A stretch of DNA of 64,000 bases from Syntrophomonas sp. (GTDB taxonomy: Bacteria; Bacillota; Syntrophomonadia; Syntrophomonadales; Syntrophomonadaceae), in NCBI GenBank assembly GCA_016841245.1, contig JAENZN010000003.1, positions 62,001 through 126,000 on the forward strand, given 5' to 3'. Under the pieces are notes generated by a model that searched no databases, was not told the origin of the DNA, and saw only the letters and a program-made list of their open reading frames with translations. The position numbers and the translations under genes are program-made. Positions 9,567-30,156 of this stretch are shown here, one piece after another; position 1 is the stretch's first letter; the number at the start of each line of letters is the position of its first letter.

Positions 9567-9618
9567 ATATGACCAGGTGGTCATATTATAATTAAATCAT
9601 ATGACCACCTGGTCATAT
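9567..9618. promoter_or_regulatory. Double-dyad operator, probably for the adjacent TetR
   Basis: Two 20-base sites, each made of arms ATATGACCA and TGGTCATAT around a two-base centre, are separated by 12 bases (9567-9586 and 9599-9618). The second is the exact reverse complement of the first, so the pair also forms one large inverted repeat. TetR dimers often bind GACCAnnTGGTC-type sites in tandem. Confidence 0.8.
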
Positions 9619-9794
9619 TGTCAAGCTATTATTTCTAAGATCCAATTTTTCGCATGGATTTTGACTTAACCTCCAAGCAGAAGAGGAAGGGAGTCAAGGG
9701 GACTCAGTCTGATATCGATACAAGAAACAAGGTGTGTGGTATGGCAGACAATATCATCTGATCTTGTAATTACTTAGAAAATTGTATACAGTCA

Positions 9795-9823
9795 TTGACA
9801 AAACACGGTCGAGAGGGTATATT
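9795..9823 (+). promoter_or_regulatory. Sigma-A-type promoter of the T-box operon
   Basis: TTGACA (9795-9800) and TATATT (9818-9823) are separated by 17 bases and lie about 30 bases before the first conserved leader sequences. Confidence 0.8.
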
Positions 9824-9851
9824 TATTTGTAATTAAAAATTTTAAAGGCAT

Positions 9852-10096: not shown

Positions 10097-10124
10097 TGAA
10101 TCATAATGACTGGAGGGAAAAGCA

Positions 10125-10709
10125 ATGGCAAGCAATGATATGGTAGAAATTCGCTGGCACGGCCGGGGTGGACAGGGAGCTAAGACGGCCTGCCTGCTTT
10201 TGGCGGATGTTGCCGCTTTAGAAGGAAAATTCGTGCAGGGGTTCCCGGAGTATGGACCCGAACGTATGGGAGCCCCTATTACAGCTTTTAATCGCATCAG
10301 TGAAAAACGGTGTTCTATCCATTCCAACATTTACGATCCGGACTATGTAGTAGTGGTAGATGAAAGTCTGCTGGATAGCGTCGATGTTACCGGAGGACTG
10401 AAAGAGGGCGGGGCGATAATCATTAACACTCCCAGCTCTCCCCAGGAGATGCGTCCCCGGCTGCAGGGATGGGCCGGAAAAGTCTGTACCATAGATGCCC
10501 GCTGCATTTCGGAAAAGTTTCTGGGCAAAAACTTACCGAACACCCCTATGCTGGCTGCTGTGGTTAAGGTGAGCGGTGTTTTGGAAACCGGGCGTTTTCT
10601 AACGGATATAGAAGAATCCTTTAAACATAAATTTGCCGCCAAGCCCCAGGTTATTGAGGGAAACATGGCAACGCTGAAAAAATCCATGGAGGAGGTGCAG
10701 GTAGGATGA
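10125..10709 (+). CDS. 2-oxoacid:ferredoxin oxidoreductase, gamma subunit
   Basis: This 194-residue protein is the gamma (CoA-binding-type) subunit of a four-subunit pyruvate/ketoisovalerate:ferredoxin oxidoreductase, recognised by EIRWHGRGGQGAKTA at the N-terminus and FPEYGPERMGAPI. The enzyme family interconverts a 2-oxoacid plus CoA with an acyl-CoA, CO2 and reduced ferredoxin in the cytoplasm. It is the first gene of a gamma-delta-alpha-beta operon with four-base ATGA-type overlaps throughout. GGAGG precedes the ATG. The T-box leader argues for a role tied to an amino acid, probably isoleucine, rather than central pyruvate metabolism. Confidence 0.92.
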   Translation: MASNDMVEIRWHGRGGQGAKTACLLLADVAALEGKFVQGFPEYGPERMGAPITAFNRISEKRCSIHSNIYDPDYVVVVDESLLDSVDVTGGLKEGGAIIINTPSSPQEMRPRLQGWAGKVCTIDARCISEKFLGKNLPNTPMLAAVVKVSGVLETGRFLTDIEESFKHKFAAKPQVIEGNMATLKKSMEEVQVG

Positions 10710-11014
10710 TTTATGCAAAGGATATCAACGAACGTACCCCCTGGCAGGATCTGACCCCCGGCGGGGAGATCTACGAACCGGGAACCGCACGGGCCTTCGA
10801 TACTGGTACCTGGCGGACCAACACGCCCGTTTTTCACGTGGAAGCATGTAAACACTGTATGCTCTGTGTTCCATTCTGCCCGGACAGTGCTATTCCAGTG
10901 AAGGATGGGAAACGTCTGGACTTCGATTATATGCACTGCAAGGGCTGCGGCATCTGTGAGAACGTATGTCCCTTTCCGGCGATCACAATGGTGACTGGAG
11001 GTGTGGCCAAATGA
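10706..11014 (+). CDS. 2-oxoacid:ferredoxin oxidoreductase, delta (2[4Fe-4S]) subunit
   Basis: This 102-residue ferredoxin-like subunit has two CxxCxxCxxxCP motifs (CKHCMLCVPFCP and CKGCGICENVCP), which bind two [4Fe-4S] clusters that pass electrons from the thiamine centre to ferredoxin. It overlaps the gamma stop by four bases and the alpha start by four bases, indicating translational coupling. The length is typical for separate delta subunits. Confidence 0.93.
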   Translation: MIYAKDINERTPWQDLTPGGEIYEPGTARAFDTGTWRTNTPVFHVEACKHCMLCVPFCPDSAIPVKDGKRLDFDYMHCKGCGICENVCPFPAITMVTGGVAK

Positions 11015-12201
11015 GCAACCGCCTTTCCGGCAACGAGGCTGTAGCTTATGCCATGAAGCAGATAAATCCTGATGTCATGGGAGCGTTCCCTATCACTCCC
11101 TCCACAGAAATTCCCGAATATTTCGCCCAATATGTGGCTGATGGCGAGGTGAATACTGAATACGTCACCGTGGAGTCTGAGCATAGTTCGATGTCGGTGT
11201 GCATTGCGGCTCAAGCTGCAGGAGCCAGAACCGTCAGTGCTACTTCATCCTGCGGGCTGGCACTGATGTACGAACTTTTATACGTGGCGGCTTCATGTCG
11301 TCTGCCTATTGTACTGGCCTGCGTCAACCGGGCCCTTTCGGGGCCAATTAACATAAACAACGATTATTCCGACTCTATGGGAGCCCGTGATTCCGGCTGG
11401 ATCCAGATCTATGCCGAAAATAATCAGGAGGCCTATGATAATTTCCTCATGGCCATGCCTATCGGGGAAACCCCGGAAGTTCGCCTGCCGGTGATGAGCT
11501 GTATGGATGGTTTCATTACCAGTCATGCGGTTGAAAATATAGAGCTTTTGGACACGGATACTGTACGCAAGTTTATCGGGGAATATCACCCTGAAAACTA
11601 TCTGCTAAAAAGAGAAAATCCACTGGCGGTAGGACCCTACGATGTGAGTGCTTATTACATGGAACACAAGGTCCTGGAGGCTGAGGCCATGAAGGTAGCC
11701 AAGTCCCGCATACTGGAGGTGGCCGCCGAGTTTGAAAGAATTTCCGGCCGGCACTATGGCCTGTTGGAAGAATATAGGATGGAAGATGCACGACTTGCGC
11801 TGGTTATTATTGGATCCAGTGCCGGAACTGCCAAAGCAGCTGTCGACAAGCTGCGGGAGGATGGAGTAAAGGCCGGGCTGGTTAAAATCAGAGTATTTCG
11901 TCCTTTTCCGGGCGAGGAACTGGCCCGGGCGTTGGCGGGTACCAGGGCTGTAGCCGTTATGGATAAGTCCGAGGGCTTTTCAGCCAACGGAGGTCCTTTA
12001 TTTGCCGAGACCCGCAGTGCTTTGTATGATCTGCAGGAACGACCCTATCTGATTGATATCGTTTACGGTCTGGGCGGCCGTGATGTAAAGACCGAGGATA
12101 TCGAAAAAGTTTTTGGCCGGCTGACGGATATTGCTGTAACTGGCGAGGTTGGACCGGTATATACCCATATGGGACAGAGGTCAAAGGAGGATAATGCATG
12201 A
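11011..12201 (+). CDS. 2-oxoacid:ferredoxin oxidoreductase, alpha subunit
   Basis: This 396-residue protein is the pyrimidine-binding/transketolase-like alpha subunit: SGNEAVAYAMKQINPDVMGAFPITPSTEIPE at the N-terminus and the VTVESEHSSMSVCIAAQAAGARTVSATSS core region are characteristic. The ATG at 11011 overlaps the delta stop as ATGA and is preferred over an in-frame ATG 45 bases earlier inside the delta gene. With the beta subunit it forms the thiamine diphosphate active site. Pyruvate and branched-chain 2-oxoacid versions cannot be separated by eye. Confidence 0.92.
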   Translation: MSNRLSGNEAVAYAMKQINPDVMGAFPITPSTEIPEYFAQYVADGEVNTEYVTVESEHSSMSVCIAAQAAGARTVSATSSCGLALMYELLYVAASCRLPIVLACVNRALSGPININNDYSDSMGARDSGWIQIYAENNQEAYDNFLMAMPIGETPEVRLPVMSCMDGFITSHAVENIELLDTDTVRKFIGEYHPENYLLKRENPLAVGPYDVSAYYMEHKVLEAEAMKVAKSRILEVAAEFERISGRHYGLLEEYRMEDARLALVIIGSSAGTAKAAVDKLREDGVKAGLVKIRVFRPFPGEELARALAGTRAVAVMDKSEGFSANGGPLFAETRSALYDLQERPYLIDIVYGLGGRDVKTEDIEKVFGRLTDIAVTGEVGPVYTHMGQRSKEDNA

Positions 12202-13136
12202 GCACGGTATATAACCTGAAACGGGAAGTGGAAAAGCCGGTACGTCTCACCGGAGGACATCGACTCTGCGCTGGCTGTGGCGCCGGGATCGTTGTGGCAG
12301 GGGTTCTGCGTGCCCTGGATGAAGAGGATCGGGCAGTGGTGGTTAATGCTACCAGTTGTTTGGAGGTCTCCACCTTTATCTATCCTTACACTGCCTATAT
12401 GGATAGCTATATTCATTCAGCTTTTGAAAACTCCGCGGCTACCTGTTCCGGAGTGGAGGCAGCCTATAATGCTTTGAAACGGCGCGGCAAGGTGGAAGGA
12501 ACCGTCAAGTTTATTACTTTTGCAGGTGACGGCGGCACCTATGATATAGGGTTCCAATCCCTGTCAGGTGCTATGGAACGCGGTCATGATATGGTTTACG
12601 TTTGCTATGATAACGAGGCTTACATGAATACCGGAATCCAGCGTTCATCTTCAACACCCAGTTTTGCCCGCACGACTACTACGCCGGTAGGTTCGGTGCA
12701 ACAGGGTAAGAAACAGAATAAAAAGGATCTGACTGAGATTTTAGTTGCCCATAATATCCCTTATGTAGCTCAGGCTGCCCCTTTAGGCAATTTCAAGGAT
12801 CTGCACACCAAGTCTTACAAAGCCATTTATACTGAGGGACCCTGCTTTTTGAACATATTGTCCCCCTGCCCGCGCGGATGGGACTATCCCATGGCCAGGC
12901 TGGCGGAGATCACCAAGCTGGCGGTGGATACCTGTGTCTGGCCCCTTTACGAAGTTGAGGAGGGAGTGTGGCGGTTGACCTATAAACCGAAGAAAAAGCT
13001 GCCCGTGGAAGACTTTCTCCGACCTCAGGGCAGATTTCGCCATATGTTCCAGCCAGGCAACGAGTGGATGATTGCAGAAGCGCAAGCTTATGTTGATCAA
13101 AAGTGGGAACGTTTGCTGGAACACACCGGCGCTTAA
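12198..13136 (+). CDS. 2-oxoacid:ferredoxin oxidoreductase, beta (TPP) subunit
   Basis: This 312-residue subunit binds thiamine diphosphate through GDGGTYDIGFQSLSGA and YDNEAYMNTGIQRS, and should hold the third [4Fe-4S] cluster through CAGCGAG near the N-terminus, TSCLE and the later SPCPRGW cysteine. It ends the four-gene operon and overlaps alpha by four bases. The length and motifs are typical for POR/VOR beta subunits. Confidence 0.93.
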   Translation: MSTVYNLKREVEKPVRLTGGHRLCAGCGAGIVVAGVLRALDEEDRAVVVNATSCLEVSTFIYPYTAYMDSYIHSAFENSAATCSGVEAAYNALKRRGKVEGTVKFITFAGDGGTYDIGFQSLSGAMERGHDMVYVCYDNEAYMNTGIQRSSSTPSFARTTTTPVGSVQQGKKQNKKDLTEILVAHNIPYVAQAAPLGNFKDLHTKSYKAIYTEGPCFLNILSPCPRGWDYPMARLAEITKLAVDTCVWPLYEVEEGVWRLTYKPKKKLPVEDFLRPQGRFRHMFQPGNEWMIAEAQAYVDQKWERLLEHTGA

Positions 13137-13196
13137 ATCTCTGGGAATAAATCAAAAAAATATGGTATGATAACTGTTAACAAGGGGGTTTTGCCT

Positions 13197-14105
13197 GTGG
13201 AACAAACCATGTTTACTAATGAGGTCATCTTATCCTGGCTCCAGTATTTTTCGCGGAACGTTGAGATCAACCTGGCAAAACTGAAGATGCTGGACATTAC
13301 CGGGAAAAATAAGAACCTGATTCCGACCGTTATGAGCAATCGGGCAGTGCTGGTCTTTACGGACGCCGGACATCCGGATATCTTCTACGACATGTGGAAT
13401 GCGGAACTGGGGGACTGCGATATCTGGTATAACGAGGGCTCAGATCCATCCGGCGAGATCAAGCACGACAAGGTCTCAGACATGATCAACCGTGGAATCA
13501 ATGCCTCTGCAGCTATGTTGATTCTGAACCCTAACGCTGCAACGAATTATCAGATAGGTATGGAGAACAGCCGTTTCTCCTGCGGCTCTGTTCAGTATGT
13601 GTGCCGGGAAGTTCGGGCGGTTATAATGAGTAAGCTCAATCTGGGGGACCAGGATAATATATGTATAATCTCAGGTGAGAGTATCGCGGTGGAGGCTGCT
13701 ATGATTGCTGCTGAGGGCAGTGTTATTGCGGTGGAATATGACCCCAGAGATCAGAATACCATGAAATGTAATGTTGACAAATTTGGCCTGAGCAACGTAA
13801 TAATCGTTGAGTCGCTGGAAAATGGTATGCTGGATAATCTGCCGGTGCCGGACAAAGCGTTTATAGTGGGGTCTCCGAGGATCGGCATTGAAATAAGGAG
13901 TCTCTTGGCCGTCAATCCCGGTATGGATTTTGTGATCTACACCTTGGACTTCGAAATTCTAACCTCTCTTCCTGCTTTGCTGCGGGAAAACGGCTTGGAG
14001 CGTAATGAAGCCATCCATATAGAGGTGTCGCGAGTCAACAGCAAAAATATGGCGGAGCCATTTCCAGCTCCCTGGGTGATCTCTGCCAGAAGCGTTAAAG
14101 GTTAA
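13197..14105 (+). CDS. CbiT-like (precorrin methylase-type) class I methyltransferase
   Basis: This 302-residue protein has a central Rossmann segment resembling CbiT: SGESIAVEAAMIAAEGSVIAVEYDP followed by KFGLSNVIIVE. The glycine-rich loop is weaker than usual (ISGES instead of GxGxG), so SAM binding is probable but not certain. GTG 13197 is chosen because AAGGGGG lies eight bases upstream; an earlier ATG at 13167 lacks a site. It starts 60 bases after the oxidoreductase beta gene without a visible terminator between them, so it may be the fifth gene of that operon. It is longer than CbiT, the N-terminal 120 residues are unfamiliar, and its exact function is unknown. Its last 130 bases recur at 16605-16737. 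Confidence 0.65.
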   Translation: MEQTMFTNEVILSWLQYFSRNVEINLAKLKMLDITGKNKNLIPTVMSNRAVLVFTDAGHPDIFYDMWNAELGDCDIWYNEGSDPSGEIKHDKVSDMINRGINASAAMLILNPNAATNYQIGMENSRFSCGSVQYVCREVRAVIMSKLNLGDQDNICIISGESIAVEAAMIAAEGSVIAVEYDPRDQNTMKCNVDKFGLSNVIIVESLENGMLDNLPVPDKAFIVGSPRIGIEIRSLLAVNPGMDFVIYTLDFEILTSLPALLRENGLERNEAIHIEVSRVNSKNMAEPFPAPWVISARSVKG

Positions 14106-16604: not shown

Positions 16605-16737
16605 AGATTTGTTTCGGGAAAACGGTTTGGAGCGCACCGAAGCAATCCATATAGCGGTATCACGAGTCAACAGCAAAAGCATGATGGAGCCATTTCCAGC
16701 TCCCTGGGTGATCTCTGCCAGAAGCGTTAAAGAATAG
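16605..16737 (+). pseudogene. Duplicated 3' end of the CbiT-like gene
   Basis: About 130 bases match 13972-14105. The last 46 or so coding bases, encoding EPFPAPWVISARSVK, are identical, while upstream positions have drifted. The fragment has no start codon or N-terminal region and ends in its own TAG. It is a direct repeat flanking the TPM-like/pspA pair. Confidence 0.9.
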
Positions 16738-17110
16738 CTTCACGCTGCAACCGGGTACCAGAATAATTTGTTAAGGCTTCATGGAAAGTCATTTTGACTA
16801 TAACATGCAGCTCATCAATATTTTATAAACCCATTTTCAGGATTAACCGTATCTGTATTAATTAACCTATCAATACTATGTATTCCTTCAGACACCATAA
16901 AGCAATAAGATTGATATTATCACTTGATATCCAGCAGGGTTATAGATATTAATTTTGTATTAGATTATCAAAGCTCGACTTAAACATAGTTATTATAGCT
17001 TTTATCCGGTGTTTGCACAAAGAGGACAAATTGAAAGGGATATGAATATACATTATAATAAAATTGGTATCATCAGTAAATGTTGGTAAAGTGGTCTAAT
17101 GAATACAAAT
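16738..17110. other. AT-rich gap with a promoter at its end
   Basis: No gene is recognisable in this stretch. The only supported element is the promoter at 17031-17059 in front of the first Moco-type riboswitch. Confidence 0.55.
17031..17059 (+). promoter_or_regulatory. Promoter of Moco-riboswitch operon 1
   Basis: TTGAAA (17031-17036) and TATAAT (17054-17059) are spaced by 17 bases and lie about 55 bases before the aptamer. Confidence 0.75.
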
Positions 17111-17218
17111 CTAACTCCGAGCCTTATTGCCTAAGGAGATTCTAGGGTGATTGGGCCTGAGCTAATGCTCTCGGGTTGCCGGAGAAATCCTGCAACCTCC
17201 CTTGTTTGGAAAGGAGTG
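17111..17218 (+). promoter_or_regulatory. Moco/Tuco-type riboswitch 1
   Basis: Conserved blocks appear in the order expected of the Moco RNA motif: ACTCCGAGCC, TTGCCTAAGG, CCTGAGC...GCTC.CGGG hairpin, GCAACCTCCC, and GGAAAGGAGT, with ACTCC and GGAGT closing P1. The stretch between CCTAAGG and CCTGAGC is about ten bases shorter than in the second copy at 20667, which may reflect loss of the P3 stem reported for tungsten-cofactor variants. It precedes a terminator, so it should control transcription of the downstream genes. Confidence 0.82.
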
Positions 17219-17236
17219 CTGACAGAATGGACTAAT

Positions 17237-17272
17237 ACTTCTGTACTCTTTTTGGTGCAGAAGTTTTTTTTT
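17237..17272 (+). terminator. Riboswitch 1 expression-platform terminator
   Basis: ACTTCTG and CAGAAGT form the stem around a 14-base loop, followed by a run of T up to 17272. Confidence 0.85.
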
Positions 17273-17437
17273 GGTCATAAAAATGTTGAGATCGAGAGGA
17301 AGCAATGAATGCCACTATTACATATCAGACCAACTCTGTAGCAAGTAATAGAGGAACTGGCTTGTTAGATTTCAAATATTTATATATGGACAATAGACAT
17401 ATATTTATTTGGTTTAATTACCAGGAAAGGAGTATAT

Positions 17438-18139
17438 ATGCTGCGCTTTGTTATTGTTACAGGTACCCCCTCGTCGGGAAAAACTTCAGTAATGCTGCAC
17501 ACTATCAGGCAACTGTTGCGAAAAAATGTTGTGGTTGCCGCGTGTAAGATAGACTGTCTGGAAACCTCTGATGATGAACGCTATCGACGTCTTGGAATAC
17601 CAGTTGCGGTGGGACTAAGTGATTACATTTGTCCGGATCATTTCTATGTGGCTAATTTGGAAGAGATCGAACACTGGGCCCGGGATGAAGAGAAGGCTGA
17701 AATAGTCGTTATTGAAACTGCGGGTTTGTGTCATCGCTGTGCTCCCGCGGTAAATGGATGTCTGTCAGTCTGTGTTGTTGATAATTTGAGTGGAATTGAT
17801 ACTCCCAAAAAAGTTGGGCCTATGCTTAGTACTGCAGATATTGTAGTGATTACCAAAGGTGATATTGTATCTCAGGCTGAAAGAGAGGTGTTCCGCCATA
17901 AAGTAGAAACCCTGAATCCCCGGGCTCGACTTATACCGATCAATGGATTGACTGGACAGGGTTCTTTAAGGCTGTACCAGGAAATAATTCGGTATCCTGC
18001 TATGGAGACTATCAGTGAAAAGGAATTGAGGTATCCTATGCCGGCCGCGATCTGTTCTTACTGTGCTGGAGAGACTATTATCGGCAAAAATTATCAAATG
18101 GGAAATGTTAAGAAGGTAGATTTTGGGAGGAAATATTAG
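17438..18139 (+). CDS. HypB/CobW-like P-loop NTPase with two CxxC motifs (module gene, operon 1)
   Basis: This 233-residue SIMIBI-type NTPase has a Walker A GTPSSGKT at residues 9-16, a DCLE switch region, VIETAGLCHRC (Cys98, Cys101) at the Walker B position, VITKGDIV in place of NKxD, and a C-terminal CSYC pair (Cys206, Cys209). Relatives such as HypB and CobW deliver metals or remodel metal-handling partners. The four cysteines are conserved in the paralogue at 24694-25380, which suggests a bound metal or [Fe-S] cluster. GGAAAGGAG precedes the ATG. It is the first gene behind riboswitch 1 and its stop overlaps the next GTG by one base. The exact function is not known to me. Confidence 0.8.
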   Translation: MLRFVIVTGTPSSGKTSVMLHTIRQLLRKNVVVAACKIDCLETSDDERYRRLGIPVAVGLSDYICPDHFYVANLEEIEHWARDEEKAEIVVIETAGLCHRCAPAVNGCLSVCVVDNLSGIDTPKKVGPMLSTADIVVITKGDIVSQAEREVFRHKVETLNPRARLIPINGLTGQGSLRLYQEIIRYPAMETISEKELRYPMPAAICSYCAGETIIGKNYQMGNVKKVDFGRKY

Positions 18140-18891
18140 TGCTTGAGAAAATAAGCATTCTGGGAGGAAATGATAAAGCTGGTGCGGCTGAACCGATTAA
18201 ATGGCTGGATGTCCGAACAGGCGAAGTGCTGGCAGTAGTTGGACCTACTGGCTCAGGCAAAACCCAGCTGATTTCTGATATCGAGCAGTATGCCAGTGGC
18301 GATACTCCAACCGGCAGATCTATTCTGGTTAATGAGCAGCCGGCCGATAAATATGCTGAAAGCAGGAAAATTAAACATTTGGTGGCAGAAGTATCCCAGA
18401 ACATGAACTTTGTAATAGACATGTCGATTGAAGAGTTTTTATTAATGCATGCCCGGATAAGGTCTATTGACAATCCCGGTAAATTGGTTGAAGAGGTTTT
18501 GGAGGTCAGCAACAAATTGGCCGGGGAGCCGCTCAGTAATACTGATAATCTCACTGCCTTAAGCGGAGGTCAATCCCGAGCTTTGATGGTGGCCGATGTA
18601 GCTCTTATAAGCAATGCACCGATAGTGCTTATTGATGAAATTGAAAATGCTGGTATTGATCGTCTTAAGGCTTTGGAGTTCTTAACCGGAAACGGTAAGG
18701 TAGTCCTGGTAGTAACTCATGACCCTACTCTGATGCTTTTGGCCAGCAACCGGGTAGTAATGAAAAATGGTGGTATGAATAAGTATTTGCCTACTTCAGG
18801 TTCAGAAAGGGAAATACTGGTGCAGTTAACTAATATAGAAAAAGAAGTATCCCTTTTGCGCAATCGTTTACGTGATGGCGAAACTATATAA
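18139..18891 (+). CDS. Soluble ABC-type ATPase without partner permease (module gene, operon 1)
   Basis: This 250-residue protein has a complete ABC nucleotide-binding set: Walker A GPTGSGKT (35-42), Q-loop VSQNMNF, signature LSGGQ (141-145), Walker B IVLIDEIENAGID and the THDP H-loop. No permease gene accompanies it in this operon. The signature continues QSRALM rather than the Q(Q/R)QRVAIA of most importers. The GTG start overlaps the NTPase stop. Its paralogue at 25392-26417 has an extra N-terminal domain. A soluble, non-transport ABC role is inferred. Confidence 0.82.
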   Translation: MLEKISILGGNDKAGAAEPIKWLDVRTGEVLAVVGPTGSGKTQLISDIEQYASGDTPTGRSILVNEQPADKYAESRKIKHLVAEVSQNMNFVIDMSIEEFLLMHARIRSIDNPGKLVEEVLEVSNKLAGEPLSNTDNLTALSGGQSRALMVADVALISNAPIVLIDEIENAGIDRLKALEFLTGNGKVVLVVTHDPTLMLLASNRVVMKNGGMNKYLPTSGSEREILVQLTNIEKEVSLLRNRLRDGETI

Positions 18892-18956: not shown

Positions 18957-19850
18957 ATGGCCAGGGTTTTAATTCACAGCCCCTTGAACATCAGTCGGAC
19001 TCTATCCGAGATGATGAAGGAATTTGCCAGGAGCATGCAGGAAAAACACGATATGGAGGTGATAATAGAGGCACAGCCGCACCGCCCGGAGGAAGTAAGT
19101 CTGTTTCAATCCTATATTGACCAGGGAGAACTCCCGGATTTAATCATAGGGCATGCCAATGATTTTGCTGACTTGCCTGAAGGTTATTTGGACAAGTATT
19201 TTAAGGCTTTGCCCGGCCGATATGCTTTAAGACAGGAACTGGCAAATGCCGGATTTAATGACCCGCAAGGTTTTTTTCATACCTTTGCGGTGGTGCCGTA
19301 CAGCATTTTGTATAATCATAAATTGATTGGGGAGAGCGAACTGCCTGAATTATGGAAAGATTTGCTTGATGATAAGTGGAAGAATAGTGTGCTTATGCCA
19401 GATGAATTTCGTATTGTATCGGTTATAGTAAAGAATTTTATGGAGTCTGCTTATCCGGAAGAATTCCAAAATTTCAGCGAAAATGTAATAAATAAGGGTG
19501 CTCCTATGGATGTTGTAAATGCAGTAGATGAAGGACAGTATCCTTTAGGCGTAGCTAATATTGCCTTTGCTCGTTTTTCGCGTCACAAGAATACAGGATT
19601 GATATGGCCTGAGGATGGGGCTTTTTGTATTCCTCAGATTATGGTTTGGAGTAAAAGAGCCGATGAACGTATGCTGGAGGCAGGTGATTTTCTGCTTTCC
19701 CGGGCAGTACAGGAGTTCATGGGCACTCAGAGTTTTGTGCCGGCTTCTCTGGATACTCCGCTGCCGGAGCTGGTAGCTAGAAATAATTGCAGCCTGCACT
19801 GGCAAGGATGGGATCATTTTCTTAAAATCATAAAGGGGAGGGCTGAGTGA
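18957..19850 (+). CDS. Cytosolic substrate-binding-protein-like protein (module gene, operon 1)
   Basis: This 297-residue protein resembles type 2 periplasmic binding proteins of the Fe3+/molybdate class: LPDLIIGHANDFADLPEGY near residue 60, an FAVVPYSILYNHKLIG hinge, and LIWPEDGAFCIPQ late in the protein. It starts MARVLIHSPL without signal peptide, lipobox or membrane segment, so it should be cytosolic. AGGAGG precedes the ATG. The paralogue at 23711-24697 shares the FAR...WPEDGA and LGWD/QGWD C-terminal features. A bound metal oxyanion or cofactor is a guess from the riboswitch context. Confidence 0.72.
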   Translation: MARVLIHSPLNISRTLSEMMKEFARSMQEKHDMEVIIEAQPHRPEEVSLFQSYIDQGELPDLIIGHANDFADLPEGYLDKYFKALPGRYALRQELANAGFNDPQGFFHTFAVVPYSILYNHKLIGESELPELWKDLLDDKWKNSVLMPDEFRIVSVIVKNFMESAYPEEFQNFSENVINKGAPMDVVNAVDEGQYPLGVANIAFARFSRHKNTGLIWPEDGAFCIPQIMVWSKRADERMLEAGDFLLSRAVQEFMGTQSFVPASLDTPLPELVARNNCSLHWQGWDHFLKIIKGRAE

Positions 19851-20016
19851 TGCGCCCGGACTTAGTAGCGGCGTATTAACTAACAGCGCTATAGTAACAG
19901 GAAAATTTTCGGTGGATAGGAAAGTGCGAGGTAATCCTTCTTTGCTTTTAAGAACTGATTAGTATGTGGATAAATGCTGTATTTTGAATTCATCAAATTG
20001 GAAAAGGAATGATAAA

Positions 20017-20607
20017 ATGGCGGATTCTTTTTTGCACCTGTTACCAATATATCCTTTGCTGGCTCAGCAAATTTTGGATGATTATCAGATGGAAAAGGGC
20101 CGATGTATTGATATAGGCACCGGCCATGGTTACCTGGGTATTGAGTTGGCTAAAATCACAGATTTGGAAATGTATTTTATCGATATAAAAAAGGAAGCAC
20201 TGGAACAGGCTGAAAAAAACGCAGTTGAAGCTGGATTACAAAATATTCTTTGTTTTATACAGGCTGATGTTACCGCGCTTCCTTTTGAAAATAATTTTGC
20301 GGACCTTATTATAAGCCGGGGTTCATTATGGTTCTGGGAAGATAAAGTTCAAGGTTTGCAGGAAATCTACCGGGTTATAAAGCCGGGAGGAACTGCACTG
20401 GTAGGTGGAGGATTGGGCCGTTATACCCCTACCACAATGCGTAAACGCCTTAAAGGCAGGAGCGTTGAGAATATGCGGAAAAGTGGCGGTGAAAAGCTCA
20501 GCGGAGATGAGCTGGTTGATTTAATGCATAAAACGGGAATCGAAAACTATACCGTGGTTTCAGATGTTCCCGGGGAAGCGGGTACCTGGATAGAAATGAA
20601 AAAATAG
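20017..20607 (+). CDS. Class I SAM-dependent methyltransferase
   Basis: This 196-residue protein has the UbiE-like SAM fold: CIDIGTGHGYLGIELA (motif I), MYFIDIKKEALEQA (motif II) and ADLIISRGSLWFWED (motif IV). ATG 20017 with AAGGAATG upstream is preferred over GTG 19966, which lacks a ribosome site. It follows the substrate-binding-like gene by 166 bases with no clear terminator, so it may be part of operon 1, and it precedes riboswitch 2 by only 60 bases. The substrate is unknown; similar genes are often misannotated as arsenite or ubiquinone methyltransferases. Confidence 0.85.
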   Translation: MADSFLHLLPIYPLLAQQILDDYQMEKGRCIDIGTGHGYLGIELAKITDLEMYFIDIKKEALEQAEKNAVEAGLQNILCFIQADVTALPFENNFADLIISRGSLWFWEDKVQGLQEIYRVIKPGGTALVGGGLGRYTPTTMRKRLKGRSVENMRKSGGEKLSGDELVDLMHKTGIENYTVVSDVPGEAGTWIEMKK

Positions 20608-20666
20608 GATTAATCTTAAGCGCCGGGTATTTCAATGAGGAGAGCTCCCAAAATACATATTTCATA

Positions 20667-20781
20667 ACTCCGAGTCTATTTGCCTAAGGTAAGGCTGGCT
20701 ATAGCTATGGCAATGTGACCTGAGCTGAAAGCTCACAGGGCTGTTAAAGAAATTCAGCAGCCTCCCGTTTAGGAAAGGAGT
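20667..20781 (+). promoter_or_regulatory. Moco/Tuco-type riboswitch 2
   Basis: The same blocks as in riboswitch 1 recur: ACTCCGAG, TTGCCTAAGG, CCTGAGCTGAAAGCTCACAGG hairpin (stem GAGC/GCTC), CAGCCTCCC and GGAAAGGAGT. Here an extra potential hairpin around GGCTATAGCTATGGC lies between CCTAAGG and CCTGAGC, as expected for P3 of the molybdenum-cofactor form. I see no clear promoter of its own; readthrough from operon 1 is possible. Confidence 0.82.
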
Positions 20782-20791
20782 ATAAAAGCTT

Positions 20792-20826
20792 AATGCTTCT
20801 GTATTTCTTTATGGAAGCATTTTCTT
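20792..20826 (+). terminator. Riboswitch 2 expression-platform terminator
   Basis: AATGCTTC and GAAGCATT form the stem, followed by TTCTTATTT. The U-tract is imperfect but the placement mirrors riboswitch 1. Confidence 0.75.
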
Positions 20827-20855: not shown

Positions 20856-21638
20856 TTGGGTTTGCTGGAGGTAAAAAACATAGATTTCAGTTATGGCCGA
20901 ATACCAATTCTTAAAAATATCTGTTTTGAGTTGGATAAGGCTCAAATATGGGTGCTTCTTGGCCCTAATGGATCAGGAAAATCTACTTTGCTGCGCTGTT
21001 TATCAGGTCTGAATGAGCCTCATTCAGGGCATATATGTATCGAAGGAAGAAACTTAAAAAAATTCAGCCGTAAGCAGCTGGCCAGACATATATGCTTTTT
21101 GCCGCAAAAACAAATGGAGCTGCAGTATACCAGTGTGTATGAATTGGTAGCCATGGGCAGGAGCCCCCATCAATCACTGGGATGGTGTCTTACCGGGAAG
21201 GATAAAGAAAAAATCAATTGGGCTATAGAATATATGAAACTGACCGGGCTGCAAAAAAGGTTGTTAAGTTCCCTTTCCGGCGGGGAAAGACAACGTGCCT
21301 GGATTGCTATGATTCTGGTTCAGGATACTCCGGTAATACTGCTGGATGAACCAGCTACTTTTTTGGACCTAAAATACCAATGGGATTTGATTGCCAAGAT
21401 TCATGATATTCGCAGGCAGCTGCAGAAAAGTTTTGTTATTGTGCTTCATGATGTTAATCAAGCTTTTGCTCTGGCAGACCAGGTTTTGGTTCTTAAAGAT
21501 GGGCAGGTATACCAGTCGGGAAATCCTGCAGAAGTAATTACTTCACAACTGCTTCAGGACGTATATAGCATTGAAGCCAATGTTTGCAGAATACCTCAGC
21601 ATTCTCGGCCGGTGGTAATACCCAAGGCGATATGTTAA
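20856..21638 (+). CDS. FecE/BtuD-type ABC transporter ATPase
   Basis: This 260-residue importer ATPase has Walker A GPNGSGKST (36-44), signature LSGGERQRAWIAM, Walker B VILLDEPATFLDL and an LHDVNQA H-loop, typical of the iron-siderophore/cobalamin/molybdate (FecE/BtuD/MolC) family. TTG 20856 is preferred because AAGGAGG lies just upstream; an earlier ATG falls inside the riboswitch terminator stem. With the lipoprotein and permease genes downstream it makes a complete importer. Control by a Moco-type riboswitch suggests molybdate/tungstate, a metallophore complex or a cofactor as cargo. Confidence 0.92.
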   Translation: MGLLEVKNIDFSYGRIPILKNICFELDKAQIWVLLGPNGSGKSTLLRCLSGLNEPHSGHICIEGRNLKKFSRKQLARHICFLPQKQMELQYTSVYELVAMGRSPHQSLGWCLTGKDKEKINWAIEYMKLTGLQKRLLSSLSGGERQRAWIAMILVQDTPVILLDEPATFLDLKYQWDLIAKIHDIRRQLQKSFVIVLHDVNQAFALADQVLVLKDGQVYQSGNPAEVITSQLLQDVYSIEANVCRIPQHSRPVVIPKAIC

Positions 21639-21658
21639 TTAAAGAGAGGAGATTAAAT

Positions 21659-22639
21659 ATGAGAAGGAAAAGTGGAGCAAAAATATTATCCTTGCTGGTG
21701 ATTATTGGAATGCTGGTCTTTGGAGGATGTACCGGCCAGGAGGCAGGTAAACAATCAGATACTGCATTAAATGCTGATACTTTAAGCTCGGAGACTAACA
21801 CGATAACAGACGATCTGGGACGTGAAGTAGAAATACCGGCTAACCCACAAAAGGTTTTAGCACTTACTAAAAATATGATGGATGAATTGTATGAGATTGG
21901 AATTATTCCGGTAGGAAGGGTAGAAGAATACAAGAACCGGGAAGAGCTATGTGCCTTGCCCAGTGTTTCTACTCAGCAAAACCCTAATTTGGAAGCGATT
22001 TATGAATTGAAACCAGACTTAATTCTGGCTAATACTTTTCAACATGCTCAGATGGCAGAAGGGCTGGAGAAATCCGGCGCGGCAGTTTACTTTATCGATC
22101 CCACTAAAGTTGCAAACGATCCCTGGACAGACAGGATAACCCTAATGGGCAGTTTGCTGAACCGGGAAGCAGAAGCCAGTGCGTACTTGGAGAAACTGGA
22201 CCAACTGTCGGCTGAGCTGCAGGAGAAAATTGCCCCGGCCAATTATCAAACCGGGCTTATGTTGCTGTGCGGAGGAGACACTATTAGTGCAGCGCAGCCA
22301 ACCGGGGTTTGGGGGGCATTGCTGGTGAAATTGGGTATTGAAAATATTGTGCCCAGCGGGTTGCCGGGATCGGATAAATCCACCTGGGTTACCTATGATG
22401 CGGAGTCTATTATTGAAGCAGATCCGGATTTGATTATATTAAAGGCCTCCTCCAATGATAAAGAGCAGCAGAAGAAGATTAAGTCTTCTTTCATGCAGAA
22501 CCCGGCCTGGAAGGAATTGAAGGCGGTAAAGAATGCTAATGTATATTTGCTGCCGGGGAAATACACTCCTGGCAATGCCAGCAATGAAGAAATCCTTGAT
22601 GCAGCTGCCAGGATTATCTATCCTCAAGGTTTTGAGTAA
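21659..22639 (+). CDS. Substrate-binding lipoprotein of FecB/BtuF type
   Basis: This 326-residue lipoprotein has an N-terminal signal with lipobox VFGGC (lipidated Cys24). The mature domain is class III: ITDDLGREVEIPANPQKVLAL, a long backbone helix region, and a C-terminal VYLLPGKYTPG. AGAGGAG precedes ATG 21659. It should capture the cargo outside the cell and deliver it to the permease at 22649. Family members bind siderophores, haem, B12 or molybdate/tungstate, so the family alone does not fix the ligand. Confidence 0.92.
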   Translation: MRRKSGAKILSLLVIIGMLVFGGCTGQEAGKQSDTALNADTLSSETNTITDDLGREVEIPANPQKVLALTKNMMDELYEIGIIPVGRVEEYKNREELCALPSVSTQQNPNLEAIYELKPDLILANTFQHAQMAEGLEKSGAAVYFIDPTKVANDPWTDRITLMGSLLNREAEASAYLEKLDQLSAELQEKIAPANYQTGLMLLCGGDTISAAQPTGVWGALLVKLGIENIVPSGLPGSDKSTWVTYDAESIIEADPDLIILKASSNDKEQQKKIKSSFMQNPAWKELKAVKNANVYLLPGKYTPGNASNEEILDAAARIIYPQGFE

Positions 22640-22648
22640 AGTATAAGC

Positions 22649-23680
22649 TTGGGTATTAAAAATAGGATAGAAGCAGCAGTTGTAATTCCTGATAATAAAA
22701 AACGTATTATCTATTTAGCAGTATTTGCGATTATACTAGCCGCATCTGTTTTTTATAGCATTGCAGTAGGAACCGTAGATTTCAAGCTGGATGAATTTGC
22801 TGCTGTTTTTAAAGGTAATGCGGAGGGCCTTATTTCTTACCAAATTATTTACAATATTCGTCTGCCCCGGATATTAACCGGGACATTGGCAGGTATGAAC
22901 CTGGCTGTAGCTGGAGCATTATTACAGGGGGTTTTGCGCAACCCCCTGGCCTCTCCCCAGATTATCGGTGTGAATTCCGGGGCAGGATGTATGGCAGTTC
23001 TGATTATGGTCGTTTTTCCCGGTTTTATTGATTTGCTGCCAGTGGGAGCTTTCCTGGGAGCCCTGGGGGCCTCTATGCTGGTCTATGGTTTGGCCAGTAA
23101 AGAAGGGCCAGGTGGAACTGCTAATATAGTCCTGGCTGGAGTTGCCATTTCCGCCCTCTTACATGCCTTTACTTCGGCTTTAATGATTATTAACAGCGAC
23201 GAGCTGCAGATTACTTATACCTGGCTGATTGGCGGATTGACCGGTCGGGGATGGTCTCATTTTAACATGTTATGGCCTTACTGCCTGATTGGTCTGCTGT
23301 CAGCGGTTATGCTCAGTCCGAAAATAAATCTGTTTATACTGGGAGACGATGTTGGAAGCAGTTTGGGTCTGGAGGTGAAGCTTTATCGCTTATTAATTAT
23401 CATTAATGCTTCTTTGTTGGCAGGAAGTGCGGTGAGTGTAGTTGGTACGGTCGGATTTATTGGCCTTATTGCCCCCCATCTGGCTCGGCTTCTAGTGGGC
23501 AATGATTACCGTTATTTGGTGGTGTTAAGTGCTGTTTTGGGAGCTGGGCTGTTGGTAACGGCGGATACCCTGGCTCGAATATTGTTTCAGCCGGTGGAGC
23601 TGCCGGTAGGTATTCTGACTGCTGCTCTGGGTGCGCCATTTTTCTTTTACTTGATGTATAGAAAAAAGAACTCAGTTTAG
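22649..23680 (+). CDS. FecCD/BtuC-type ABC transporter permease
   Basis: This 343-residue permease has about ten membrane helices and family motifs: RLPRILTGTLAGMNLAVAG, LLQGVLRNPLASPQIIGVNSGAG and the coupling region GTVGFIGLIAPHLAR. It starts with TTG nine bases after the binding-protein stop. A single permease gene implies a homodimer, as in BtuC and the molybdate-transporting MolB. Confidence 0.92.
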   Translation: MGIKNRIEAAVVIPDNKKRIIYLAVFAIILAASVFYSIAVGTVDFKLDEFAAVFKGNAEGLISYQIIYNIRLPRILTGTLAGMNLAVAGALLQGVLRNPLASPQIIGVNSGAGCMAVLIMVVFPGFIDLLPVGAFLGALGASMLVYGLASKEGPGGTANIVLAGVAISALLHAFTSALMIINSDELQITYTWLIGGLTGRGWSHFNMLWPYCLIGLLSAVMLSPKINLFILGDDVGSSLGLEVKLYRLLIIINASLLAGSAVSVVGTVGFIGLIAPHLARLLVGNDYRYLVVLSAVLGAGLLVTADTLARILFQPVELPVGILTAALGAPFFFYLMYRKKNSV

Positions 23681-23710: not shown

Positions 23711-24697
23711 ATGAATTTCGATAAACTGCAGGAACTTGATTTGCTTGGACTAATGCCATGTCCATTAAAGGTGCCCTTTGAACAGGTATGCAATTCATAT
23801 GTGAGCTTTTTGGAAGGAAAAGATGAGGATGCCCATTATAAATGTCTGATTGAATCCAACGCCAACAAAGAGGTAAATTTCTTTGCCTGGATAGCTGCTT
23901 GCTCTAATATTGATGAATTGCCCGGAATTATGATGGCGCCTGGATTTAACCATTTTTTTTCTCGGGATTTTATGGATAATTTCAAGAGGCAATTTACTGC
24001 GGTACGAGGACGTGCAAATAATACCTCTCTTCATGGAGTGGATTTGGCTGATCCGGATGGACATTATAATATTCTGAGTTTTAATCCGACCGTAATGCTG
24101 GTAGACCGGACTCTGCATCCGGATCTGCCGGTTCCCCGCTGCTGGGCAGATTTATTGAAGTCTGAATATGAAGATCTGGTGGCTCTGCGTGGTCATATGA
24201 ATGAGAATTTTTGTGAAGGTATAATTATGAATATATATAAAGAGCATGGAGAAGAGGGGGTGAAAAGACTGGGCAGGGCTGTGAAAATGGGAGTTCATCC
24301 ATCACAGATGGTTAAATTTGCCGGCAGCGCTAAAAAGGAAGCACCGGCTGTAAGTGCTGTTCCCTATTCTTTTGCTCGTCTGGTCAAGGCCAATGATAAG
24401 GTTAAAATAGTCTGGCCAGAAGATGGAGCTATAGTAAATCCATTTGTTATGCTGGTAAAAAGTTCAGAACTTCCTCGGCTGCAGAAGATAGCAGAATTTA
24501 TTGCCGGTTCCCCAATAGGGCAGGTTTTCGCGTCAACCTTTTTCCCTTCCTATCATCCCGAGGTATTAAATGATCTTCCGCCTGAGGCTCGATTTAAATG
24601 GCTGGGCTGGGATTTCATCCAGGAAAATGATTTGGGCGAGTTGGTGCCGAAGCTGGAAAATATACTATTAAGTTCTTACCGGGAGAAAATGGCATGA
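23711..24697 (+). CDS. Cytosolic substrate-binding-protein-like protein (module gene, operon 2)
   Basis: This 328-residue protein is paralogous to the one at 18957-19850: both have a DELPG/GELPD segment followed by an aromatic-rich stretch, an SFARLV/AFARFS region, VWPEDGAIVNP and a WLGWDF C-terminus. The N-terminal 30 residues (LQELDLLGLMPCPLKVPF) are soluble and lack a signal sequence. ATG 23711 follows GGAGG. It comes 30 bases after the transporter permease and overlaps the NTPase gene by four bases (ATGA), which ties the cytosolic module to the importer. Confidence 0.72.
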   Translation: MNFDKLQELDLLGLMPCPLKVPFEQVCNSYVSFLEGKDEDAHYKCLIESNANKEVNFFAWIAACSNIDELPGIMMAPGFNHFFSRDFMDNFKRQFTAVRGRANNTSLHGVDLADPDGHYNILSFNPTVMLVDRTLHPDLPVPRCWADLLKSEYEDLVALRGHMNENFCEGIIMNIYKEHGEEGVKRLGRAVKMGVHPSQMVKFAGSAKKEAPAVSAVPYSFARLVKANDKVKIVWPEDGAIVNPFVMLVKSSELPRLQKIAEFIAGSPIGQVFASTFFPSYHPEVLNDLPPEARFKWLGWDFIQENDLGELVPKLENILLSSYREKMA

Positions 24698-25380
24698 AAG
24701 TAGTAACTGTATCTGGACCTCCATCTTCAGGGAAAACCGCCGTTATCCTCAAGGCTGCTCAGGCTTTGCGGGATGATGGATTAAAAATCGGGGTAGTCAA
24801 ATTGGATTGTTTGGCAACCCATGATGATGTGGCTTATGAAAAGGCGGGGATGGAAGTAAAAGTAGGTCTTTCCGGTAACCTGTGCCCCGACCATTTTTTT
24901 ATCAGCAATATTGAAGAATGTGTTGAATGGGGACAGCGTAAAAATCTGGACTTTTTAATAAGTGAAAGTGCCGGTCTCTGCAACCGCTGTTCACCTCATA
25001 TCAAAGGGGTAAAAGCTGTATGCGTAATTGATAACCTCATGGGTATAAATACCCCGCAAAAAATTGGACCGATGCTCAAACTGGCAGATATAGTAGTTAT
25101 AAGCAAAGGAGATATTGTATCTCAGGCAGAACGCGAAGTTTTTGCTTTCAAAGTTCGTCAGGTTAACCCCAAGGGCCTGATTTTTCACATCAATGGCATT
25201 ACCGGGCAGGGTGCTTATGAGCTGAGCCGGCTTTTTATGGAAACCCCTGAATTAGTAAGCCTTAATGGTAAACAACTGCGTTTTTCGATGCCGGCCGCCC
25301 TTTGTTCATACTGTCTGGGTGAAAGGCGGATAGGGAAGGACTTTCAAATGGGCAATGTGAGAAAAATTCATTTTGTTTGA
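24694..25380 (+). CDS. HypB/CobW-like P-loop NTPase with two CxxC motifs (module gene, operon 2)
   Basis: This 228-residue paralogue of the protein at 17438-18139 has Walker A GPPSSGKT, LISESAGLCNRC (Cys96, Cys99), VISKGDIVSQAEREVF and a C-terminal CSYC (Cys204, Cys207) followed by GKDFQMGNVRK. The region from VCVIDNL through IGPML...ADIVVI is nearly identical in the two copies, marking it as a functional surface. The ATG overlaps the preceding stop. A metal-handling NTPase is inferred from HypB/CobW relatives, the cysteines and the riboswitch. Confidence 0.8.
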   Translation: MKVVTVSGPPSSGKTAVILKAAQALRDDGLKIGVVKLDCLATHDDVAYEKAGMEVKVGLSGNLCPDHFFISNIEECVEWGQRKNLDFLISESAGLCNRCSPHIKGVKAVCVIDNLMGINTPQKIGPMLKLADIVVISKGDIVSQAEREVFAFKVRQVNPKGLIFHINGITGQGAYELSRLFMETPELVSLNGKQLRFSMPAALCSYCLGERRIGKDFQMGNVRKIHFV

Positions 25381-25391: not shown

Positions 25392-26417
25392 ATGATGAGT
25401 AAAGATAATTATCAAGAACTTAGTCTGGAAGAATTACTGCAAAATTATTCATATGCAGCTGATTTTTTTACTGCCATGCTTCTGCCTCTTCAGCCAATTA
25501 ATCTCACTTTAAAAGAATACTTTAATATGCTTGAAAGTGAACTCTTAGAAGATTTGGGTATGGATCGTAATGAACTGGCCGAACGTTTTGAGCTTTTTAT
25601 GGCTCATATGCAAGAAGTGCAAAAAGCGGCTCCATTTGCGGTGAATAATATTACCATTGTAGGCGGACGTGATAAAAATGGGCTAGCGGAAAATATTACC
25701 CTTAACATGAAAACCGGAGAGATAATTTGTATAGTTGGTCCAACCGGATCAGGGAAAAGCCGGCTGCTGGCAGATATTGAATGGATGGCTCAGGGAGACA
25801 CTCCCACCGGACGTAAAATCTTGATTAATGGGCAGATTCCTCCCAGGGAATGGCGGTTTTCGCTGGAGCACAAACTAGTAGCGCAATTATCACAAAATAT
25901 GAACTTTGTAGTAGATATGACCGCCTATGAATTTGTGAAAATGCATGCGGAAAGCAGGATGAGCAGCAGTCCTGAACTGAAAGCCCGGTTTATTGTAGAG
26001 CAGGCTAATCTTCTGGCCGGGGAAGAATTTTTCACCGATACTCCGGTAACTGCCCTGAGCGGAGGGCAATCAAGGGCTTTGATGATAGCAGATACGGCTT
26101 TTCTAAGTACCTCGCCGATCGTGCTTATTGATGAGATAGAGAATGCCGGAATTGATCGACAGCGAGCATTAAAACTGCTGATTAAAGAAGAGAAGATAGT
26201 CCTTATCGCCACCCATGACCCTATTTTGGCCCTGATGGGGCATAAACGGATAGTTATAAAAAATGGCGGAATCAATAATATTATAAATGGAAGTATCAAA
26301 GAACAGGCCAATCTATCAGATCTGGAAAGAATCGACCGAAAAATGCTGGGGCTGCGCAATATGATACGCAGAGGGGAACGGATTGATTTTAATGTACAGT
26401 CATATTTCCAGGAATAA
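25392..26417 (+). CDS. Soluble ABC-type ATPase with N-terminal helical extension (module gene, operon 2)
   Basis: This 341-residue protein carries an ABC domain homologous to the protein at 18139-18891 (Walker A GPTGSGKS, VAQLSQNMNFVVDMT Q-loop, LSGGQSRALM, IVLIDEIENAGID, THDP). About 80 N-terminal residues precede it (SLEELLQNYSYAADFF, then LTLKEYFNMLESE), which resemble DUF1858-type helical domains, though I cannot confirm the family. It lies 12 bases after the NTPase gene and ends operon 2. The sequence around IENAGIDR is strongly conserved between copies. No permease matches this ATPase, since the FecCD permease already has its own. Confidence 0.8.
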   Translation: MMSKDNYQELSLEELLQNYSYAADFFTAMLLPLQPINLTLKEYFNMLESELLEDLGMDRNELAERFELFMAHMQEVQKAAPFAVNNITIVGGRDKNGLAENITLNMKTGEIICIVGPTGSGKSRLLADIEWMAQGDTPTGRKILINGQIPPREWRFSLEHKLVAQLSQNMNFVVDMTAYEFVKMHAESRMSSSPELKARFIVEQANLLAGEEFFTDTPVTALSGGQSRALMIADTAFLSTSPIVLIDEIENAGIDRQRALKLLIKEEKIVLIATHDPILALMGHKRIVIKNGGINNIINGSIKEQANLSDLERIDRKMLGLRNMIRRGERIDFNVQSYFQE

Positions 26418-28851: not shown

Positions 28852-30156
28852 TTAATCCCAGCTGTAGGAATAATAACTGCCATTATATTTCACATAATAG
28901 CGGGAATTGTCATTATCGATCAGGTATCCGGTGATATCGGCATCTTCAAAATCCGTATCATCGATTTCATCACTGATTTCCGATTCCAAGTCATCTAAAA
29001 ACTCTTCTATATCATCTTCATCAAGGTCGGCCAAATCGTCGTAATTATCAGCATCATCGAAAACAAGCTTAACTTTGTATAATAAATCATCTTCATCGCC
29101 ACTTAAGGTTATAGCACACTCTATACCGTCATCATCAAAATAATCGTCTCCGGCGTCCTCAAAAGTGTCATTGATAGCATCTATGATATCATCCAGATCA
29201 TCTTCATCAGTCCAGCTGTAGGAATAATAACTGCCATTATATCTCACATAATAGCGGGAATTGTCATTATCAATCAAGTATCCGGTAATATCGGCATCTT
29301 CATAATCTGTGTTATCGATTTCATCATAGAGTTCATCTTCCAGGTCATCTAAAAATGCTTCGATATCATCTTCATCCAGATCTTTCAAATCATCGTAATC
29401 ATCAGCATCATCGAAATCAAGCTTAACTCTGTAAACTAAATCATCTTCATTGCCGCTTAAGGTTATAGCACACTCTATGCCGTCATCATCAAAATAATCA
29501 TCTCCGGCGTCCTCAAAAGTGTTATTGATAGCAGCTACAATATCATCTAAATCATCATTCTGGTTATAGTAAATACTATTACTATAGTTATAATTACTAT
29601 CGTCTTCCATATCTTCAGGTAGTTCTATATAAATTACTCCATTTTCCCAATCAACAGTGGCCCCAAATGCTTCGCAAAGGAACCTTATGGGAATATAGGT
29701 ATTCCCATTTATTAGCTGGGGTGCAGCGTCTAACTGCTGCTGACCATTATTTATATAGCCCACATTGTTGCCAATTGACAGCCGAACATTAGTATTTCCC
29801 CGGTTAGCAGTTACCGTTCGGGTAGAATTTTCCCATTGAACATTGCCCCCCACAGATTCAAAAAGACTTCTCATGGGGACCAAAACAGAACCATTCATAT
29901 TTACTGGATCTGAAGAGAAGTCCTGTTTTGCGCCATTAATATACACTGATATTTTTGATCCTGTAGTAGATGATGCAGCATTTCTGTTTTGTATGTTTCC
30001 AGCCTGACCTTGTCCCGGTATTCCTCCTTGCTGCCTGGTGGGCATTCTGCCTTGTTGTCCAGTGGGCGACTGGCTATAATTATTGGCAAGAGCACACGTT
30101 CCCATGGAAAACCAGGTTAATGCAAACACCATGAGCCCCGCAAAAAGTTTTTTCAC
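28852..30156 (-). CDS. Secreted copper-amine-oxidase-N-domain protein with tandem acidic repeats
   Basis: This 434-residue protein has a signal peptide (residues 1 to about 25), a Gln/Gly-rich linker and a CuAmineOxN stalk domain (about 70-180, with VLVPMRSLFESVGGNVQWE and TYIPIRFLCEAFGATVDWE). Two copies of a 118-residue unit (each ending NGSYYSYSW) follow, extremely rich in Asp and Glu. The two units are about 354 bases apart in DNA and highly similar, so the duplication is recent. The stalk domain usually anchors proteins to the Firmicute cell surface. The acidic units may bind Ca2+ or other cations; no enzyme activity is suggested. Confidence 0.85.
   Translation of the reverse strand: MKKLFAGLMVFALTWFSMGTCALANNYSQSPTGQQGRMPTRQQGGIPGQGQAGNIQNRNAASSTTGSKISVYINGAKQDFSSDPVNMNGSVLVPMRSLFESVGGNVQWENSTRTVTANRGNTNVRLSIGNNVGYINNGQQQLDAAPQLINGNTYIPIRFLCEAFGATVDWENGVIYIELPEDMEDDSNYNYSNSIYYNQNDDLDDIVAAINNTFEDAGDDYFDDDGIECAITLSGNEDDLVYRVKLDFDDADDYDDLKDLDEDDIEAFLDDLEDELYDEIDNTDYEDADITGYLIDNDNSRYYVRYNGSYYSYSWTDEDDLDDIIDAINDTFEDAGDDYFDDDGIECAITLSGDEDDLLYKVKLVFDDADNYDDLADLDEDDIEEFLDDLESEISDEIDDTDFEDADITGYLIDNDNSRYYVKYNGSYYSYSWD

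Follow-up and report, generated by a model that had tools for sequence, protein, structure and literature searches.

The DNA analysed here (the window, a whole stretch of 64,000 nucleotides) comes from an anaerobic syntrophic bacterium, Syntrophomonas sp. On its plus strand, an ABC importer of the FecBCD class is flanked by two copies of a three-gene cassette, copy A lying behind a first Moco riboswitch (RS1) and copy B following the permease gene FecD. The parts of the locus are as follows.

17031..17059 (+): promoter-like site TTGAAA-17-TATAAT before RS1 (consensus scan, 11/12, which by itself is no proof of function)
17103..17232 (+): Moco riboswitch RS1 (RF01055), P3 stem kept (cmscan, 78.5 bits; compared with the 16 other RF01055 elements of the genome)
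17237..17264 (+): intrinsic-terminator-like hairpin after RS1, followed by T8
17438..18139 (+): cassette A CobW/HypB-like GTPase (PF02492, 47 bits, below the HypB cut-off)
18139..18891 (+): cassette A soluble ABC ATPase (PF00005)
18957..19850 (+): cassette A SBP_bac_6 protein without a signal peptide (PF13343, 104 bits)
19966..20607 (+): class I SAM methyltransferase (PF08241)
20656..20796 (+): Moco riboswitch RS2 (RF01055), P3 stem kept (cmscan, 85.1 bits, E 2.9e-19)
20792..20821 (+): intrinsic-terminator-like hairpin after RS2, with a T-rich tail
20856..21638 (+): FecE-type importer ATPase, with a TTG start behind GGAGG (PF00005, 113 bits)
21659..22639 (+): FecB-type binding lipoprotein with a lipobox, of the siderophore-receptor type (PF01497, Peripla_BP_2, 124 bits; PDB comparisons)
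22649..23680 (+): FecD-type permease (PF01032, FecCD, 310 bits)
23711..24697 (+): cassette B cytosolic SBP_bac_6 protein (PF13343, 228 bits)
24694..25380 (+): cassette B CobW/HypB-like GTPase with CPDH, CxRC and CSYC motifs (PF02492)
25392..26417 (+): cassette B soluble ABC ATPase with an N-terminal extension (PF00005; Mo/nif clade in the tree)

The combination of a FecCD permease, a Peripla_BP_2 lipoprotein and an ABC ATPase in one operon is that of a type II ABC importer. The operon has these families instead of a ModA/WtpA binding protein and a ModB-type permease, and the first-pass annotation was therefore right to place the importer in the siderophore/B12 class and not with ModABC or WtpABC. 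It had also described the downstream genes as coupled by ATGA. The ATGA overlap is real (24694-24697), but it joins the SBP and GTPase genes of cassette B, whereas the FecD and SBP genes do not overlap and are separated by a gap of 30 nt. For FecE, a longer reading frame with an ATG start at 20793 was rejected because this codon sits within the terminator hairpin, and the TTG at 20856 is preferred for the same reason. Homologues of the SAM methyltransferase adjoin the cassette in other loci as well (L101, L126, L138, L203, L206, L207, L209 and L217).

Two further genes of the window may be mentioned. A molybdopterin oxidoreductase gene of Fdh-alpha/PhsA-like type, scoring below the equivalog cut-offs, lies at 38092-40176, 12 kb downstream of the system and behind a TetR-type regulator gene. 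At 28852-30156 there is a gene for a secreted protein of 434 aa, in which an acidic block of about 90 residues is duplicated.

Against a gathering score of 36 bits, both RS2 and RS1 are clear members of RF01055, and a terminator-like hairpin is found immediately 3' of each aptamer. The consensus scan showed a sigma-70-like promoter before RS1 and none before RS2, so that RS2 may be a second checkpoint within one transcription unit. The genome (3.9 Mb in 56 contigs) has 17 matches to RF01055, of which 16 are above the cut-off. The P3 stem is present in six of the 17 and absent from the other 11. Those with P3 are RS1, RS2, the three that precede a ModABC operon (C37) and a single member of the formate dehydrogenase pair (C17), and those without include the ones preceding the FecBCD operons of C4 and C24 and the WtpA operon. 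The ModA and WtpA operons of the genome are also under RF01055, and their ModA and WtpA proteins both score above the curated cut-offs. According to the available part of Regulski et al. 2008 (PMC2408646), RNAs with P3 are found before Moco genes and those without P3 before tungsten cofactor genes; this rule for Moco versus Tuco is a correlation, and the same part of that paper reports no switch in specificity when P3 was deleted from the E. coli RNA. Because RS1 and RS2 both keep P3, the rule suggests from sequence that the window importer lies on the molybdenum side.

Other RF01055 elements of the genome have varied settings. Forms with and without P3 coexist (L001-L017), and there are tandem arrays of three (C37, C16) and of two (C17). 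A triple array of P3-less elements (L019, 667-1403) lies upstream of a gene (1786-13503) for a surface protein of 3905 aa with FN3, RCC1, SLH and Shr-like heme-interacting domains, with genes for ECF-type ATPases after it, which is an unusual target for a cofactor riboswitch. One P3-less element (L024, 4221-4341) stands before HypA, HypB and NiFe hydrogenase genes, with a CooT-domain gene upstream of it. A further RF01055 element, on the minus strand (L023, 18410-18523), is aimed at the back of a plus-strand gene (16708-18186) and has no gene of its own directly downstream.

The association of RF01055 with FecCD permeases extends beyond the window. Three of the six clear FecCD permeases of the genome lie within 4 kb downstream of an RF01055 element on the same strand. 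Over 13 Syntrophomonadaceae genomes, namely this one and 12 relatives, 37 FecCD permeases were counted, and 17 of them have RF01055 on the same strand at most 6 kb upstream, compared to 0.48 expected at random; these genomes are related and not independent, and the Poisson value is only indicative. In the downstream direction, used as a control in the same 13 genomes, the count is 3 rather than 17. On the tree, the permeases with this link belong to four lineages or more. It is concluded that the link between RF01055 and FecCD permeases is not a matter of chance, and that a regulatory link between riboswitch and importer is well supported. The proposal that the window importer is under a Moco-type riboswitch thus holds, both for RS2 before FecE and for the class across the family. 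A single origin of the riboswitch-linked FecD was considered and rejected, as the label needs at least four changes on the tree.

Orthologues of the window FecBCD that accompany the same cassette, often with the methyltransferase, were found in at least five other genomes, all without RF01055 nearby; for the closest orthologous systems (L070, L206, L207, L216 and L217) no upstream element reached the gathering score. Since these orthologues lack the riboswitch, they do not point to molybdenum as the general cargo of this FecBCD lineage, and the cargo of the window importer is something that we infer. The same orthologues would be expected if RS2 were a remnant, or acted on the cassette genes only, and the importer carried a cargo unrelated to molybdenum or tungsten. 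RS2 however scores 85 bits, has kept both its P3 stem and its terminator, and lies directly before fecE, which makes such an arrangement most improbable.

FecE has the NCBIfam family FecE as its nearest match, at 267 bits and thus under the cut-off of 375. The nearest relatives of FecD in the PDB are FhuB (221 bits), HmuU (191), MolB (HI1471, 143) and BtuC (125), and in the tree it groups apart from the two other riboswitch-linked FecD proteins of the genome. The binding lipoprotein is more distinctive. The FecB proteins of C4 and C24 both have MolA of H. influenzae (3psa) in their top three PDB matches, at 113 and 99 bits. Among the riboswitch-linked FecB proteins examined, all are nearer to the C4, C24 and L138 types except that of the window. 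Searched against the PDB as a single sequence, it gave no match to MolA at E 0.01. A profile of its lineage, built from six orthologues, gave YfiY at 101 bits, HtsA at 99, SirA at 81 and MolA at 38, the last at about rank 49. The first-pass annotation had drawn an analogy with MolA; for the window lipoprotein, a MolA-type identity was rejected on this profile.

An AlphaFold2 model of the lipoprotein (pLDDT 83, from a nine-sequence alignment) had its best alignment with the HtsA-staphyloferrin A structure (Z 25.1, rmsd 3.0, 275 residues). The best 50 structural matches listed are siderophore-type binding proteins or relatives without names, with the siderophore binders at Z 21-25. The structural comparison with MolA that had been suggested in the first pass gave it no support, in that MolA is absent among these 50, which alone excludes nothing. 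Both sequence and predicted fold place the protein in the HtsA/SirA/FhuD class, an assignment of relatedness and not of ligand. Its lineage has one invariant histidine, H129, which aligns with a histidine of HtsA and YfiY, and no invariant arginine cluster.

These comparisons bear on the suggestion that the importer resembles MolBCA and carries free molybdate or tungstate, its lipoprotein being merely divergent. MolBC-A is a type II molybdate importer (available text of PMC4031551), and within the family the remaining FecB proteins linked to the riboswitch are nearer to a MolA-like type than they are to the window lineage. With MolA about 49th for the window lineage, far behind YfiY, and with FecD separate from the two other riboswitch-linked permeases of the genome, we consider a carrier of the free oxyanion rather unlikely. 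A chelate is the likelier cargo because the window FecB is of the siderophore-receptor type and not MolA-like, and of the earlier ideas about the cargo, that of a metallophore complex gains from the sequence and predicted fold.

The chelated metal could also be iron, as this type of FecB is otherwise known for iron siderophores. The importer might then bring in an iron siderophore under control of the Moco riboswitch and supply iron for the Fe-S enzymes of Moco synthesis or for Mo/W enzymes, with the cassette serving in Fe-S or iron handling. The siderophore-type FecB and the nearest permease relatives, FhuB and HmuU, are consistent with this, but it leaves the control by a Moco sensor unexplained. 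The cassette, described below, provides evidence on both sides.

Two other groups of FecBCD genes in the genome deserve a comment. Two further operons (L021 and L023) are under P3-less RF01055, have a MolA-like FecB, and are candidate tungstate/molybdate importers. A third (L065, 3478-9500) has no RF01055 and lies beside nitrogenase-component-1-like (PF00148) genes and two FecB genes.

The cassettes A and B share 50% identity in their GTPases and 52% in their ATPases. Relatives are common: one scan found at least 479 relatives of the GTPase, and the order SBP-GTPase-ATPase is nearly universal in the 80 loci that were read. The binding-protein-like gene without a signal sequence that the first-pass annotation had noted downstream of the importer encodes an SBP_bac_6 protein. 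The AlphaFold2 model of the cassette B protein (pLDDT 94) has the predicted fold of the ferric-binding proteins FbpA/FutA (TM about 0.63), which fits a role in iron handling. Two of its residues, C17 and H196, are invariant and a third, D238, is nearly so; all three are candidate ligands. The motifs CPDH, CxRC and CSYC are invariant in the four cassette GTPases aligned (4/4) and are Cys/His motifs resembling metal sites. No curated NCBIfam cut-off was reached by the cassette GTPases and ATPases. An identity of the GTPases as HypB was rejected (TIGR00073 at 47-49 bits, against a cut-off of 121), as was UreG or MobB, both below curated cut-offs. The family libraries searched assign no function to the cassette, and a literature search found nothing naming it.

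A tree was made of 79 cassette ATPases, with context labels assigned from the contexts seen. The cassette B ATPase falls in a clade of 18 rows (support 99/90), which holds 11/11 of the sampled Mod/Nif-context loci and 4/4 of the Fec/TonB-context loci in the tree, and includes every sampled cassette beside ModAB, nitrogenase or MolA-like FecB genes in Bacillota, Chlorobi and Geobacteraceae; because the labels came from the contexts seen, this Mo/nif clade represents clustering and not proof. It spans Chlorobi, Geobacteraceae, Pelosinus, Anaerobacterium and Syntrophomonadaceae. In Anaerobacterium chartisolvens (L138) a single run reads ModA-ModB-ModC-FecB-FecD-FecE-methyltransferase-SBP, a GTPase match, and ATPase-SBP. 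In Pelosinus propionicus (L122), AnfD/AnfG/AnfK, NifB, the cassette and ModABC share a span of less than 20 kb; AnfK is above its curated cut-off, and AnfD, truncated where the sequence of the locus ends, falls just short of its own. In Trichlorobacter thiogenes, FecD, FecE, a TonB receptor, the cassette, a FecB and NifH are found together. The signal-less protein of the first-pass annotation thus belongs to a clade that keeps company with mod, nif/anf and MolA-like genes.

The Mo/nif clade takes in only a minority of the sampled cassettes. Of those outside it, many adjoin genes for hybrid cluster protein or NrfHA, and the loci beside these genes form other clades. Hybrid cluster protein and NrfHA use iron rather than molybdenum, and these clades are what an iron-handling cassette would predict. 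ModAB, AnfDGK, NifB and MolA-like FecB beside the clade of cassette B would however be left without explanation, and we regard an iron-siderophore importer as unlikely. Between L075 and L149, the cassette lies by hybrid cluster protein genes in 15 loci, mostly from Clostridia, and by NrfHA in eight, from Bacteroidales; a wider role in the supply of metal centres or in nitrosative stress is possible.

TonB receptors adjoin the cassette in Chlorobi and Trichlorobacter. Such receptors are a better match for a chelate than for an oxyanion, which in free form passes through porins, and together with the siderophore-type FecB they are the reason for favouring a chelate.

The genomic company also bears on a different cargo, namely intact molybdopterin or Moco, or another organic precursor, salvaged by a BtuFCD-like route. 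Type II importers do carry cofactors such as B12 and heme. The ligand of the riboswitch is the cofactor itself, which parallels the B12 riboswitches that precede btu genes, and a labile cofactor would presumably be spared in an anoxic habitat. The mod, anf and MolA-like contexts of the clade nevertheless indicate a metal and not a pterin. We know of no precedent for a salvage importer of Moco or molybdopterin, and consider this very unlikely.

The cassette is not confined to importers of one kind. It adjoins FecBCD with RF01055 in L203, L204 and L205, and is also found with RF01055 in L068 and L125/L210. In the genome G023, the partners of an RF01055-controlled A-type cassette are a Dpp/Nik-type importer and a DUF364 protein, not FecBCD. 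It would seem, then, that the cassette can serve more than one type of importer, and what it handles in other loci may not be the same. In the locus L068 (1-11820), the genes that follow RF01055 encode a Dpp/Nik-type importer, two methyltransferases, the A-type cassette and a DUF364/DUF4213 protein (putative heavy-metal chelation).

The reading that we prefer is that the window importer brings in a compound of molybdenum, probably a chelate and not free molybdate, under feedback from Moco, and we judge its chances of being correct to be about even. Taken by parts, the metal is probably molybdenum, a chelate is more likely than molybdate, and a handing on of the cargo inside the cell is plausible from gene order only. 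When Moco is scarce, the aptamers of RS1 and RS2 would be empty, and the terminators behind them would not form. Read-through at RS1 would then give cassette A and the methyltransferase, and read-through at RS2 would give FecE-FecB-FecD and cassette B. The chelate would be caught by the lipoprotein FecB and carried in by a FecD dimer with FecE, after which the cytosolic SBP-like proteins, the GTPase and the soluble ATPase may receive the metal, release it or pass it on. The gene order, the riboswitches and terminators, the association with RF01055, the protein families and the phylogeny of the cassette are observations, whereas we infer the identity of the metal, its chelated state and each of the steps inside the cell.

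A broader proposal, which is tentative and on the doubtful side, is that the locus represents a full route for chelated molybdenum in anaerobes, in which a siderophore-type FecBCD, subject to feedback from Moco, imports a complex of molybdenum with a metallophore, and a cytosolic relay of wide occurrence (SBP-like protein, G3E-type GTPase and soluble ABC ATPase, often with a methyltransferase) takes over the cargo and frees or delivers the metal. To our knowledge, no bacterium offers a well-defined importer for chelated molybdenum, and little has been established about the path of the metal from the membrane to the synthesis of the cofactor. The locus offers candidate parts for both the import of chelated molybdenum and the intracellular steps, and the pathway of uptake and hand-on that it suggests is now open to testing. 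More generally, the link of the FecBCD class to the Moco/Tuco riboswitch gives a predicted metal for many importers, and the P3 difference predicts which of them respond to molybdenum and which to tungsten.

Several known systems resemble parts of this one. ModABC and WtpABC share with it the riboswitch class, which lies over the ModA- and WtpA-type operons of the genome, but are type I importers with another family of binding protein. The Moco/Tuco riboswitch regulon (RF01055) has the same P3 aptamer, the terminator and downstream molybdate transporters; recurrent FecBCD targets and the cassette are not mentioned in the available part of its description (PMC2408646). The cassette GTPases share the PF02492 domain and metal-site-like Cys/His motifs with the G3E GTPases HypB, UreG and CobW, and differ in scoring below the HypB cut-off and in forming a constant trio with the genes for a soluble ABC ATPase and an SBP_bac_6 protein. 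MolBCA of Haemophilus influenzae (HI1470-1472) is likewise a type II importer of the FecBCD class tied to molybdenum, with a related permease (HI1471, 143 bits). The window FecB is unlike MolA, which other FecB proteins linked to a riboswitch in this genome do resemble, and the available text on MolBC-A (PMC4031551) describes no Moco riboswitch or cytosolic cassette. Finally, the Gram-positive siderophore importers, in which HtsA, SirA or YfiY work with Hts/Sir/Fhu-type permeases, match the window system in the type of FecB, in its predicted fold, and in a permease closest to FhuB, whereas the window system adds a Moco riboswitch and cytosolic SBP-GTPase-ATPase genes.
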